64,000 nt of DNA, taken from contig JAWAHN010000002.1 in the NCBI GenBank assembly GCA_038889235.1, positions 14,356 to 78,355 on the forward strand, in the 5' to 3' direction. Each line of letters begins with the position of its first letter. The first letter of the stretch is position 1. The notes beneath the pieces were generated by a model. It saw nothing but the letters and a program-made list of their open reading frames with translations, was not told the origin of the DNA and did no database searches. A program made the position numbers and the translations under genes. Source of the DNA: Candidatus Jordarchaeales archaeon. GTDB lineage: Archaea; Asgardarchaeota; Jordiarchaeia; Jordiarchaeales; Freyrarchaeaceae. Positions 1 through 4,534 of the stretch are shown here, piece by piece.

Positions 1-401
1 CTCATCATCTGCTCGTGCTGAACTGTCATCTCCATTATGTCGTCCGAGCTTGCAAGCTTCATGGCGCTCTCCATGAGCCGGCCAGCTGCCTCCACGCTCT
101 CCTTAACCTGCACTATGTCGTGGGCCTGTTCTATGGCGAAGAGGCGCGCCTCAAGGTTCTCTATGAAGCCCGCATACCTGTTAAGGGCCCCAAGGTAGAA
201 GTAGTACCTTTTCAGGGCGAGCTCCGCGCCCTTCCTGTTCCCTGCCTTGAGGTAAGCTTTAGCGGTCTCCCTAGCCTTCAACGCCTGCTGCTCATACCTT
301 TTCGACTTAACTATCAGACTGTTAATCGTGGCCCTAATCTCACTAATCACTTGGTCCTTTGTTTTCGCCCTCTTGCCAAACAACTTTTCTCTGAAGCTCA
401 T
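1..401 (-). CDS. ESCRT-III (Snf7-fold) protein, partial
   Basis: The first 133 residues are visible; the gene runs off the left edge. It starts at ATG 401-399, preceded by a GGGAGGCG ribosome site. A basic N-terminus (MSFREKLFGKRAK) is followed by a long helical hairpin with the Snf7 pattern: AKAYLKAGNRKGAELALKR, then a second helix with LEARLFAIEQAHDIVQVKES and later MESAMKLA. This matches the alpha1-alpha2 core of eukaryotic CHMP/Snf7 and archaeal CdvB proteins, which polymerise on membranes to drive scission. It is the third gene of a minus-strand run, behind a HerA-type ATPase and a second ESCRT-III protein. The C-terminus, where a Vps4-binding motif or a winged helix would lie, is outside the window. 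Family assignment is by motif reading. Confidence 0.82.
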   Translation of the reverse strand, partial: MSFREKLFGKRAKTKDQVISEIRATINSLIVKSKRYEQQALKARETAKAYLKAGNRKGAELALKRYYFYLGALNRYAGFIENLEARLFAIEQAHDIVQVKESVEAAGRLMESAMKLASSDDIMEMTVQHEQMM

Positions 402-457
402 CTAAACGCCTCCCATCAAAACTAAACTTCGCCTCCCCCAGTTATTAAACCTCTCCC

Positions 458-3301
458 TCAAGGCATCCTACTGAGCATCTGCTCGAGCTCCCTGATCTTC
501 CTAAGCGCCTTCCTCATAAGGAAAGTGTACTCCTCCTCGCTCATCCTCCCGAGCGAATAGTACTCGTGCAGGCTCTGAAGGTACTTCCGAATCCGCTGTA
601 TCTTGGCGGCAACCTCCTCGCGCGAAGGAACCTCCTCGTCCCCCCCTCTACCAACACCGCCCTCAACCTCCTCAGCCTCTCTCTTCGCCGGCGGCGCCTC
701 AGCCGCGGTTTCAATTGGAGCCACCGGCGGAGCTACAACCCTCCTCCTCTCCCTCCTCGGTGGGGGCACCCACTCCCCCTTCACCTCTTTCAGCTCCTTC
801 TCCAAGGCACCTTTAAGCCTAGCCGCCTCCTCCCTACTGGGAGCGGTGACCTCAACGGCGACCAGCGTAGCGTCAACACTCAAACCCACTGCTGCAGCCA
901 GCCTCGCCGCACCTCTCCCCGCCAGGACCACTACCTCCTCCCCGGGTTGCTCGGAGACCTCCCATCCTTGGGACGCCAACACCTCCTTCAGCTTCCCGAC
1001 GACGAGCGACGGGTTAACTTTAACAGCCAACTGGAACCCCGACGACTCGGCCTTCTGCGACGGGTAGAGGTGTTCGTGAAACCTGTACTTAACCAGCCTG
1101 GAAAGGTAGTCGAGCGCCAAATCCTGCGGCACGTCGAGAACCCTGACGCCCACTGTTGGCTCAATCGTGGCTTCAGGCGGCCTAGCAGCCTCGCCCCCCT
1201 CCACGCCCCTAAATATATCCACCGCCTTTGTTTCGCTTACTTCAGACGGCTTAGCAGCTCCCTCAGCAGCCTCACCTCCTACCCCTTCAGCCGCTGTGCT
1301 GGGTGTGGCCTCCCTTCCGGCGTGTTTGCTCACACGCGGCCTAACCTTCACCACGAAGGCTCTCCCGGTCTCCGCCGACACGTCTGAGACCACTGCTACC
1401 CCGGTCGGAAGTCTGCGTATTAAGTCCTCAGCCAATTTTGGAACCACGTTAGGCGACCTCCTCCTGAAAGCCTCCACGTCCGCCTCGAAGACCAGTCTGT
1501 GTGCGATCACCACGTCTACTTGGGACAACACGCGGTCGTCTGTGGCTGAGGGCTGCTGTGTGGCGAGGACGAGGGCACACCCAGGCTTCCTCCCGAGAGT
1601 GGCGTACTCCACTAGAGGCTTTGAGGCAGCGGTCTCCCCCTTGGCTGGGATTAGCGTGTGCGCCTCGTCCACCATGAGCCACGTGACAGGTATACCCCCC
1701 GCCCCCTTACGCCCCGCCTCCTCAGCCCTCGCTTCCCTTTTCCTCCTCTCCAGTATCTTCCTCGCCAGCAGTCCTACCACGAGCCCCCGCAGCTCCCCGG
1801 TCAGCGTGCTGACATCTACCACCGACACGGTGTTCGGCTTAACTATTTCCTCCAAGGGTGTGCCTTCCTTCGAGAAAATCCCCCACCCCTTTGCCGCCAG
1901 CAGTCTCGAAACCACCGCCCTCCTCGTGTCCGGCTTAAACCCCCTCTCACGCGACAGTATCTCCTTTGACGTCTCAATGCACTCGATTAAGTCGTCGACG
2001 GAGTACTCGTCACCCTTACCCTCAACCTTCACCTCTCTCCCTTCTATGAAGGCGGCATACCCCTCCCTAACCTGTACCAGTGCCTTCTCGATCAGAAGTC
2101 CGGGTGGGCTGAACCTTTCAACACCGAAAGCGTAACACCAGTCGTCAACCGTCAAGTCCGACGGCTTCACGGAGAACGGCACATCCCTAGTTGTCTCCGG
2201 CAGCTCTCCATAAACCCCCAACGGGACGAAGACCCTGACATTGCTAAACCCCTTAGGCTCCAGCCCCCACTCCCTAACCCTCCTCAGCTCATCCGCCTCG
2301 CTGCTCGGCTGCTTCACGCTCCAGAACACACCAATCGGGTCAACTATGACGACCGCCACCCCAAGACCTGAACGCGCAATCTCCTCGGCTAGGACGCCCA
2401 GCGTGTAGGACTTCCCCGACCCCCGCTGGCCGCATATGAAGACAACGTGCGGCTTAAGCACGTCGAGAAGCACAGGGCGCCCCGCCAGCTCCCCCCTCTC
2501 CCATACGCGTCCAATATAGGCGAGCCCACGGCTCACCTCGCGCTCCTCCCTAGTCCTGCCGAGCACCACCCCCTCCCCCACCTCGTCCAACATCACCTCC
2601 AAGGGTGCCCCAACATCGAACACGTCTCCCGGAGCATCCCTCCTCCGCGCCCTCAACTCCCCTAAGAGAGCGGAGAGAGCCCTCCATACGTCTTCAGCAT
2701 TGTCCAAGCTCAGGGATTCAAACACCTTCTCCCGGTCACGCACCCCTTCCGGGTAAAAATTCGGGTCGAAGTTGCAGACCTCCCAGCATGCGAGCGCGGC
2801 ATCCTCTCCAAGCACGCCTGCTGCTTCATCGAAAAACCTTCTCTCTCCCGTCGCCCCGTAGAGCGCCAGAACCCCCCTGGCCCTCTCCACCCCGCTCAGC
2901 CTGTCCACAGCCTCCCTCATCTTCGACAATAACTCCCCACGCCCGGTAGCCCAGTAGACCTCCAGGAGTACTTGGAGGAGTGCCACGTCGACGTACGTTG
3001 TTCTGAAGGCGTAGTCGGCCAGTCTTCCAAGTGCCTCCTCAGTCCTCCCCCCGGGAGCCAGCCTTAGGGCGCGCGCTGCAGCGTTCAGCCTGCCCCCCGC
3101 ACTTCCTCCTTCAAGTATCATGCCGGCCAGCTTGTCCGCTTCGGCCACCGCTCTCTCCAAGAACTCTCTTCTACCGGTCAGCTGGTAGACTGCAGCGAGG
3201 GCGCAGGTTCCCTCCCCTCCCGAGAGGCTTAACACGTCAACCTTTCCCAGAATGGTGTGGAGTAGCTCGCAGACGGGTCTTCCTCTTTCAAGCATAGGCA
3301 A
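458..3301 (-). CDS. HerA/FtsK-type ATPase between two ESCRT-III genes
   Basis: A protein of 947 residues. Residues 1-220 are helical and repeat-like (TPR-like helical pairs, no firm family). Residues 228-285 look like a HAS-barrel, as in HerA. The RecA-type core follows, with Walker A GQRGSGKS at 291-298, Walker B WLMVDEAH at 541-548 and the sensor-like ATQQP at 580-584, all typical of HerA/DUF87 hexameric pumps. An alpha/beta region (about 710-840) leads into a proline/arginine/glutamate-rich linker (about 845-890) and a C-terminal helical hairpin resembling SHOCT (GRMSEEEY). The start is TTG 3301 or ATG 3295, just after the upstream ESCRT-III stop. HerA usually pairs with NurA in end resection; no NurA is present, and the flanking ESCRT-III genes suggest a membrane or cell-division role. 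That role is inference. Confidence 0.85.
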   Translation of the reverse strand: MPMLERGRPVCELLHTILGKVDVLSLSGGEGTCALAAVYQLTGRREFLERAVAEADKLAGMILEGGSAGGRLNAAARALRLAPGGRTEEALGRLADYAFRTTYVDVALLQVLLEVYWATGRGELLSKMREAVDRLSGVERARGVLALYGATGERRFFDEAAGVLGEDAALACWEVCNFDPNFYPEGVRDREKVFESLSLDNAEDVWRALSALLGELRARRRDAPGDVFDVGAPLEVMLDEVGEGVVLGRTREEREVSRGLAYIGRVWERGELAGRPVLLDVLKPHVVFICGQRGSGKSYTLGVLAEEIARSGLGVAVVIVDPIGVFWSVKQPSSEADELRRVREWGLEPKGFSNVRVFVPLGVYGELPETTRDVPFSVKPSDLTVDDWCYAFGVERFSPPGLLIEKALVQVREGYAAFIEGREVKVEGKGDEYSVDDLIECIETSKEILSRERGFKPDTRRAVVSRLLAAKGWGIFSKEGTPLEEIVKPNTVSVVDVSTLTGELRGLVVGLLARKILERRKREARAEEAGRKGAGGIPVTWLMVDEAHTLIPAKGETAASKPLVEYATLGRKPGCALVLATQQPSATDDRVLSQVDVVIAHRLVFEADVEAFRRRSPNVVPKLAEDLIRRLPTGVAVVSDVSAETGRAFVVKVRPRVSKHAGREATPSTAAEGVGGEAAEGAAKPSEVSETKAVDIFRGVEGGEAARPPEATIEPTVGVRVLDVPQDLALDYLSRLVKYRFHEHLYPSQKAESSGFQLAVKVNPSLVVGKLKEVLASQGWEVSEQPGEEVVVLAGRGAARLAAAVGLSVDATLVAVEVTAPSREEAARLKGALEKELKEVKGEWVPPPRRERRRVVAPPVAPIETAAEAPPAKREAEEVEGGVGRGGDEEVPSREEVAAKIQRIRKYLQSLHEYYSLGRMSEEEYTFLMRKALRKIRELEQMLSRMP

Positions 3302-3306
3302 CCCGG

Positions 3307-3918
3307 TTACAGCTCCTCTTTAAGCTTCTTGATGTCTTTCTCCAGCTCGGCTATCTTTCCAGCCGGCACGGAGGGCAGCTTAACCCCTGTCTCGACGCCT
3401 ATCTCCTGGTCTATCTCGGTCAGCACGTCCACTACTTCTTTCGTGGTGACGTCGGTGGACATGGCCATTTTCTCGAAGCCAGCTTCAGTCATGTCGTGAG
3501 CTATGTCGAACTCCCTCATCGAAGCATCTATCTCGTCCACAAGTTGAGCGACGTCTGGGAGGCTAACCGTGCTCTTCAACCCTTCAAGGGCCGCCTTTAT
3601 TCCGGAGAGCGTGCTGGCGACCTCGTAAACCGACTGGCTCTGCCTCAGCCTCACAACCATCCCTTGGATCCTCATTCTGTAAGCGTCTGTAGCCAGAGCC
3701 CACTTCTGGTACCTTAGGAAATGCTCGGCGTACATCTTCGCCGCGTCGTTGTTTCCAGCCATGCGGTAGCGCTTAGCCTCTTCCCTGCTCCTCTTAGCCT
3801 CCCTCTCGAGCTCCTTCTTGTGGTACTCGAGCTTCCTCGTGAAGACCTCCAGCTTGAATATAACGTCTTTGAGGTTTGGCCCCCCTTTGAGCCAGCTCAG
3901 AAACTTCTTGAATGACAT
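3307..3918 (-). CDS. ESCRT-III (Snf7/CdvB-like) protein
   Basis: About 203 residues from ATG 3918. An in-frame ATG at 3927 sits directly against the AGGTGG ribosome site, so the later one (MSFKKFLSWLK, parallel to the MSF start of the gene at 401) is preferred. The basic N-terminus precedes a long helical hairpin with the Snf7/Vps2 signature: AKRYRMAGNNDAAKMYAEH, then MRIQGMVVRLRQSQSVYEVA and an acidic third and fourth helix (LVDEIDASMREFDIAHDM). The tail AELEKDIKKLKEEL loosely resembles a MIM1 motif, which binds MIT domains. No winged-helix domain of the CdvB type follows. It is the first gene of the run ESCRT-III, ATPase, ESCRT-III. Family knowledge: membrane-remodelling filaments in division, budding and repair. 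Confidence 0.87.
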   Translation of the reverse strand: MSFKKFLSWLKGGPNLKDVIFKLEVFTRKLEYHKKELEREAKRSREEAKRYRMAGNNDAAKMYAEHFLRYQKWALATDAYRMRIQGMVVRLRQSQSVYEVASTLSGIKAALEGLKSTVSLPDVAQLVDEIDASMREFDIAHDMTEAGFEKMAMSTDVTTKEVVDVLTEIDQEIGVETGVKLPSVPAGKIAELEKDIKKLKEEL

Positions 3919-3958
3919 GGAGACCATCCACCTAAGTGAAGTTTAGGGAAGCGGCGGG

Positions 3959-4534
3959 TTATAACGCTTTCCTAGAGTGCATCCTGCAGTCGATCTCGTG
4001 GTGAACCAGCGTCACACAGTGGCTGGCTAGGTATCTTCTCGGGCCAAGGGACACCCTTACAGCCCCAAGCCCTCCTAGGACATCTTCGTACTCCGGTGGG
4101 AGGTCCAGGTGGCTTCCCAGCACGAAAGCTGCATCAACAGGAAGGTCGACGCTCCACAAAGGAGCCCCCTCCTCGTGCAGGTAGAAGAGGGGCAACCCCC
4201 CGGCAACCATTCCTACGACTTCCCTGAACCCCGCGCGCTCCAACCTGAACCCGTCAACGCGCTCCCCGGCAAAAACCCTCCTGAGGACTCTGGCAACTCC
4301 GAGCTCTGAGCGCGGGACAGTCCCAACCTTCCAACCCTCGACAATGAGCGCGCTCGCTCCCTCATCGAGCACCGCGCAGAACAACGTGTCCCTCCTAACG
4401 CCGCCAGCCCCCGTCAGCGCCGCCACCAGGCATCTGCAGACGACGTCAAGCCTCCCCGAAGACCCAGGAAGGTTCTTCAAGCTGAACCCAGGCGAAGACC
4501 TCGCAGTTAAAGCCACGACGATGAACGCCCTCAA
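3959..4534 (-). CDS. trmY: tRNA (pseudouridine(54)-N(1))-methyltransferase TrmY
   Basis: 191 residues. TrmY is a SPOUT methyltransferase that makes N1-methylpseudouridine at position 54 of archaeal tRNAs using S-adenosylmethionine. The N-terminus MRAFIVVALTARSS and the segment LPGSSGRLDVVCRC match the family. The C-terminal trefoil-knot signature is present as LGSHLDLPPE and SLGPRRYLASHCVTLVHHE. The start is TTG 4534, immediately after the TGA of the upstream permease gene, so the two are translationally coupled or at least co-transcribed. Length is normal for TrmY. Nothing suggests damage. Confidence 0.92.
   Translation of the reverse strand: MRAFIVVALTARSSPGFSLKNLPGSSGRLDVVCRCLVAALTGAGGVRRDTLFCAVLDEGASALIVEGWKVGTVPRSELGVARVLRRVFAGERVDGFRLERAGFREVVGMVAGGLPLFYLHEEGAPLWSVDLPVDAAFVLGSHLDLPPEYEDVLGGLGAVRVSLGPRRYLASHCVTLVHHEIDCRMHSRKAL

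Follow-up and report, generated by a model that had tools for sequence, protein, structure and literature searches.

Organization of the locus

The window (the whole 64,000 nt stretch of DNA that was analysed) comes from a Jordarchaeial (Asgard) genome and carries at its left end three minus strand open reading frames, called at positions 3–401, 458–3301 and 3307–3927. In order of transcription, and head to tail, they encode a Snf7 protein (E1), an ATPase of the HerA/FtsK superfamily and a second Snf7 protein (E2) (Table 1). A sequence-only reading of this DNA had described an ESCRT-III pair flanking an ATPase on one strand, and this arrangement stands.

Table 1. Genes of the locus (window positions) and domains of the ATPase (residues)
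Feature	Position	Strand	Length or extent	Basis
ESCRT-IIIA-like protein E1, Snf7 fold	3307–3918	−	203 aa from ATG 3918 (206 aa from 3927)	Pfam Snf7, PDB matches, tail conservation
HerA/FtsK-superfamily ATPase	458–3295	−	945 aa from the likely start, ATG 3295 (947 aa from TTG 3301)	Pfam, AlphaFold, Foldseek, alignment
ESCRT-IIIB-like protein E2, Snf7 fold	3–401	−	N-terminal 133 codons; remainder left of the window, past a scaffold gap	
Upstream neighbour, putative SAM-dependent RNA methyltransferase (PF04013)	3959–4534	−		Pfam, 130 bits
ATPase domains	N-terminal alpha/alpha-repeat ~1–222; HerA-type core ~245–660; linker; small alpha/beta ~720–840; linker; helical hairpin ~894–945			

The frame called for the ATPase opens at TTG 3301, and from this codon the 947 residues and the spacing of about 5 bases first reported are correct. 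In the alignment, relatives begin at MLxxGRP, which places the likely start at the in-frame ATG at 3295. From this likelier start the protein is 945 aa long and the gap to the ESCRT-III stop codon is 11 nt.

A scaffold gap of 98 Ns (L012:14258–14355) lies inside the E2 gene and abuts the left window edge. About 125 bp are repeated on both flanks, and the gap is therefore likely an assembly artefact, i.e. a false gap between overlapping contigs, which makes one gene mimic two Snf7 hits. Read across the gap, E2 is 213 aa. A candidate third Snf7 gene at G000:C2:13987–14220 was dropped, since past the scaffold gap these bases complete E2 at its 3′ side, and a genome-wide search showed no further Snf7 genes besides E1 and E2.

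The left edge had been singled out as a place to look for Vps4. The extended sequence has no Vps4 there and shows instead the rest of E2 and a convergent gene with zinc-finger, PH/Vps36-like and CdvA-like hairpin matches, each below the Pfam cut-off. The C-terminal hairpin of this neighbour aligns with Helarchaeal UEV proteins (hhalign 97%, E = 1e-11), and from its sequence the protein fits the ESCRT-I Znr_PH_CC_SB family of Makarova et al. (PMC11188069). On the other side of the locus, the PF04013 methyltransferase gene is a neighbour conserved in L048–L051, and the sister family f2 likewise has it ahead of E1. It is listed as a neighbour only, with no claim of module membership.

A CRISPR-like array is present about 10 kb to the left of the ESCRT locus (L012:1–3900, the start of G000:C2). 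It consists of at least 42 copies of a repeat of ~37 nt (GAAACAAAAACAGTCCCCCACAAATGGGGATTGAAAG) with a spacing of ~76 nt.

The two ESCRT-III proteins

Pfam Snf7 (PF03357) scores are 69.9 bits for E1 and 68.7 bits for E2 in its 213 aa reading, against a curated cut-off of 27.3, and the Snf7 fold proposed from the sequence is borne out. The best PDB sequence matches of E1 are CHMP1B, CHMP1A and CHMP3 (human CHMP1/CHMP3). An E2 orthologue gives the Heimdallarchaeal ESCRT-IIIB 9ftl as its best match (3e-13), together with other ESCRT-IIIB/Snf7 matches. A tree that spans the loci resolves E1 and E2 as two clades (support 98/93), therefore the gene order is orthologous between loci. On the basis of the PDB matches and the two clades, E1 and E2 are assigned as the normal Asgard IIIA/IIIB complement.

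Read by eye, the C-terminal helix of E1 (IAELEKDIKKLKEEL) resembles MIM1 and this tail is kept in relatives, and the E2 tail displays a proline-rich VP motif. Both ESCRT-III tails appear to retain MIM-like motifs.

The ATPase

The ATPase is above the Pfam cut-offs for the HerA central domain (PF01935, 41.1 bits vs 23.2) and HerA_C (PF05872, 26.3 bits vs 22). The Walker A (GQRGSGKS), Walker B (WLMVDEAH) and TQQP motifs are present and are near-invariant in an alignment of the family. An AlphaFold model built with 26 sequences has a mean pLDDT of 82, with low confidence in the linkers between domains, and its top Foldseek matches are HerA structures (E = 7e-18). The HerA fold is backed by Pfam, NCBIfam and Foldseek, in accord with the HerA/FtsK class originally assigned. 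The protein scores 58.9 bits against an NCBIfam HerA equivalog cut-off of 800, and its Pfam FtsK_SpoIIIE match is not significant (E = 0.11, 12.4 bits vs a cut-off of 24). No MIT or Vps4_C domain is found by Pfam at E-values up to 1.

The N-terminal domain, modelled separately, gives a pLDDT of 88. It shows no significant fold match in the PDB, the best being alpha/alpha-barrel glycosidases, a weak alpha/alpha-toroid similarity (E = 5e-3). A profile of the domain matches the ESCRT-linked Asgard ATPases and one unlinked Bathyarchaeal ATPase, and no f4 (see below) or euryarchaeal members. In the sets compared, the alpha/alpha-repeat domain is thus shown at the sequence level to track ESCRT-III linkage. 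In the linked Bathyarchaeal ATPase (L069:6086–8398) a weak NucS-like N-terminal match replaces it.

The C-terminal hairpin is present only in families f1 and f2 and in L061, among the sets compared. By eye it suggested an ESCRT-I steadiness box. In hhalign comparisons with the steadiness boxes of the zinc/PH neighbour and of UEV proteins, the similarity was not significant (E-values of 0.02–0.04, probabilities of 1–3%); the positive control was the match between the zinc/PH neighbour and a UEV protein given above.

Several other HerA-like ATPases are encoded in the same genome. In a core-domain tree a long branch parts the ATPase family from the genome's own HerA proteins, and the deep order within the family is unresolved. 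Neighbour annotation, used here in place of a dedicated NurA profile, recognised no NurA beside the ATPase in the window, in L012 or in related ESCRT-linked loci.

Recurrence of the gene order

Conservation of the three-gene order in related genomes had been proposed as a check on the locus, and the order is indeed conserved. IIIA-ATPase-IIIB is found in Jordarchaeia f1 and f2 (some genomes being fragmentary), in Helarchaeota Hel_GB_A and Hel_GB_B, and in Wukongarchaeum; the relatives sharing it include Ca. Jordarchaeum and Jordarchaeia MAGs. The ATPase is linked to IIIB in another Asgard family and in a 'Sigynarchaeota' MAG as well. In one Bathyarchaeote it shares a locus with Vps4, ESCRT-III and Vps25-like genes. 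The ATPase is found in 5 of 257 Bathyarchaeia genomes, and one of these five carriers is seen linked to ESCRT-III.

Several variants occur. Family f24 and L061 have the order ATPase-X-IIIB, and in f24 E1 is away from the ATPase locus (G104:C17). Protein X lies between the ATPase and E2 in f2, f24 and L061, and the f2 and f24 forms can be aligned with about 20% identity and common motifs. X is about 315–350 aa in length (L062:6933–7970, L128:11342–12370, L134:3158–4108), shows conserved DFEKR and DDPSL and has no significant Pfam match. In G107 inserted genes separate the ATPase and E2 by ~12 kb. In G109 and G110 the ATPase and Snf7 genes are on different contigs, the G109 ATPase being near a contig end. 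A single 1169-codon frame in Hel_GB_A (L064) has the appearance of an ESCRT-III-ATPase fusion; this was ruled out, as the frame crosses Ns between two genes.

Across several Asgard families the arrangement is held wherever the contig is long enough. By the authors' own estimate, with two ESCRT-III genes in a genome of 2–4 Mb, placement within 10 kb has a chance of about 1% per lineage. Because the arrangement recurs in five or more families, chance adjacency of the ATPase and ESCRT-III is considered excluded on gene order.

ATPase relatives without ESCRT linkage

No ESCRT-III linkage is found for f4 (five genomes checked against Snf7), G012, G116 or G146. The f4 group (L053, L054, L055, L138, L139) is a large Asgard family whose HerA-like ATPase falls in the same branch of the superfamily and has a shared gene context. 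Its ATPases are about 680–770 aa, have no N-terminal repeat domain and are situated away from ESCRT genes. Among 20 sampled non-Asgard genomes that carry the ATPase, mostly euryarchaeal and DPANN, none has a Snf7 match above the cut-off. The core ATPase family thus appears to be older than, or independent of, the ESCRT link, and its core function need not involve ESCRT. Two euryarchaeal relatives that were scanned show C-terminal winged-helix matches. The conserved neighbours of the euryarchaeal relatives are only genes common to close relatives, none hinting at function. Monophyly of all ESCRT-linked ATPases was considered and set aside: the core-domain tree has no single clade for them (5 changes, deep forks unresolved).

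Vps4 in the same genome and in relatives

The suggestion that the ATPase is present instead of Vps4 fails. A canonical Vps4 (MIT-AAA-Vps4_C) is encoded at G000:C1, about 976,713–977,882, on a separate contig from the locus, and is followed by an ESCRT-II (Vps25-like) gene. Open reading frames of ~390–408 codons with both MIT and Vps4_C occur in 12 of the 17 genomes that carry the linked ATPase, or 13 of 17 if a 386-codon Bathyarchaeote frame is included, most of the remaining genomes being fragmentary. Vps4 is divergently oriented and directly beside the locus in Helarchaeota and the Bathyarchaeote and, as a fragment, also in Wukongarchaeum; in f1, f2 and f24 it is on another contig. Since this genome and most related ones encode Vps4, which adjoins the locus in three of these lineages (in one as a fragment), the HerA-type ATPase is, as judged from gene content, additional to Vps4.

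Comparison with known systems

Hatano 2022 (PMC9192718) and Makarova 2024 (PMC11188069/PMC10936438) describe Asgard loci that combine ESCRT-IIIA/IIIB with Vps4 and Vps25. Asgard ESCRT neighbourhoods were analysed in two of these papers (PMC11188069, PMC9192718), and the analysis of Hatano 2022 includes Hel_GB_B. The present locus resembles the published ones in having the same two ESCRT-III classes, a Vps4-Vps25 pair and an adjoining Znr_PH_CC_SB-like protein. It differs in the HerA-family ATPase between the ESCRT-III genes and, in Jordarchaeia f1 and f2, in the separation of Vps4 from ESCRT-III. Within the available running text, figures and supplements aside, Makarova 2024 (PMC11188069) does not mention HerA or FtsK and Hatano 2022 (PMC9192718) does not mention a helicase. 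The full-text literature on HerA or FtsK with ESCRT in archaea, a scope exclusive of figures, supplements and most subscription papers, likewise yielded no description. The locus is real and conserved, and its ATPase component is probably undescribed, as far as the text literature shows.

The ATPase shares with the HerA helicase of HerA-NurA (4d2i, 7wrw, 9x1m) the P-loop core, Walker A/B and the predicted fold. Unlike HerA, it displays an N-terminal alpha/alpha-repeat domain, a short region replacing the HAS barrel, TQQP and long C-terminal extensions. It also differs from HerA-NurA in having no recognised NurA beside it and in its deep branch from the genome's own HerA. As in CdvABC of TACK archaea, ESCRT-III genes share a locus with an ATPase; however, CdvC is a Vps4-type AAA ATPase and the ATPase here is of the HerA class. 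Among the genes of the locus no CdvA is recognised, and a weak match to CdvA covers only the steadiness-box hairpin of the neighbour. By functional analogy, a DNA pump beside membrane-closure machinery would recall FtsK/SpoIIIE at the bacterial septum, but the present ATPase goes with ESCRT-III and not FtsZ, and differs also in its lack of a significant FtsK_SpoIIIE match.

Proposed role of the ATPase

In its limited form, the claim that the ATPase serves the ESCRT-III module as an accessory motor alongside Vps4 is probably correct, to judge from sequence evidence. A fuller form, to which the balance still leans, makes it an accessory motor, presumably a hexameric ring, that docks and threads a polymer beside Vps4 in the Asgard ESCRT-III module. 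The motor would be co-expressed with the cell's only two ESCRT-III proteins and would dock on the ESCRT-III assembly by way of its N-terminal repeats. This docking is a guess, because no fold in the PDB matches the repeats significantly. In Jordarchaeia the C-terminal hairpin may help in docking. The motor would spend ATP on threading a polymer through the membrane site of ESCRT-III closure or away from it, the likeliest polymer being double-stranded DNA, and Vps4 would meanwhile disassemble filaments as usual.

A DNA-handling role is plausible. DNA is favoured as the substrate because the ATPase belongs to the HerA family and because relatives carry winged-helix or weak NucS-like domains. Among substrate models, a step in which DNA is cleared or moved is the likeliest, though a tentative one. 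The specific form of it, in which a dedicated HerA-family ring motor on the ESCRT-III filament clears a closing membrane neck of DNA or moves DNA through it, in division or vesicle release, is somewhat doubtful. The link between chromosome movement and membrane scission proposed in the sequence-only reading is retained as a hypothesis. Two FtsZ-family genes are present in the genome, and a review (PMC7617429) infers that Asgard archaea divide by means of FtsZ/SepF and that their ESCRT serves in sorting. For these reasons any DNA step may belong to late abscission or to the release of vesicles, and not to division as a whole.

The HerA/FtsK superfamily includes protein-secretion ATPases, relatives can move polypeptides, and a polypeptide is thus a possible substrate. 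The ATPase would then be a second translocase of ESCRT-III or of cargo proteins (VirB4-like), active in membrane-protein sorting and not on DNA. A Znr_PH_CC_SB-type ESCRT-I neighbour with a predicted membrane-binding PH domain agrees with such a role, as does the proposed action of Asgard ESCRT in protein sorting (PMC9192718; PMC11188069); the two FtsZ-family genes also suggest that division does not depend on ESCRT alone. However, the nearest folds and profiles are those of DNA-acting HerA, and the winged-helix or weak nuclease domains of relatives point the same way, which makes a protein translocase unlikely. Quite improbable is a general HerA with a DNA-repair or anti-element role, whose gene merely happens to be in a conserved housekeeping neighbourhood. 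The genome does have its several other HerA-like ATPases, PADLOC HerA models match the ATPase core, and housekeeping-type genes are near the locus (an eS26-like ribosomal protein, the RNA methyltransferase and a proteasome gene). But the ESCRT-III linkage is also kept in loci with other flanking genes (Helarchaeota, Wukongarchaeum, f24 and the Bathyarchaeote), the N-terminal domain tracks that linkage, and no NurA, SIR2 or Mre11-like partner is recognised beside the ATPase.

Least probable of these readings is replacement of Vps4 by the HerA-like ATPase as the disassembly motor of ESCRT-III. It is the sole ATPase in the Jordarchaeial ESCRT-III locus, with Vps4 on another contig in f1, f2 and f24. 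Against this, the genome itself and most related genomes encode a canonical Vps4, whose gene adjoins the locus in Helarchaeota, in the Bathyarchaeote and, as a fragment, in Wukongarchaeum. Both ESCRT-III tails appear to retain their MIM-like motifs, and Pfam reports no MIT domain in the ATPase at E-values up to 1. As a genome-wide reading, replacement is already refuted by gene content.

No known prokaryotic system is more closely related to the membrane-scission machine of eukaryotes than Asgard ESCRT. The conserved presence of a DNA-pump superfamily motor between its two ESCRT-III genes points to a testable link of ESCRT-III to the movement of DNA or another polymer. The same question arises for eukaryotic abscission and for DNA-carrying, ESCRT-dependent archaeal vesicles. 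If the DNA model is true, some Asgard archaea, members of the lineage closest to eukaryotes, would couple DNA translocation to ESCRT-III membrane scission and so possess a counterpart of septal FtsK.

Other genes near the ATPase loci

In several lineages that are not related to each other, two-domain AAA ATPases resembling Cdc48 are encoded less than 10 kb from the HerA-like ATPase (L012:8144–10315, L081:10853–13078, L090:3868–6201 and L128:14245–16446), which may be coincidence. A small protein in G007 (L050:1639–2283), encoded a few genes from the ESCRT locus, displays weak MIT and HEPN-like matches below cut-off. A similar gene is also present in L051 and L061.
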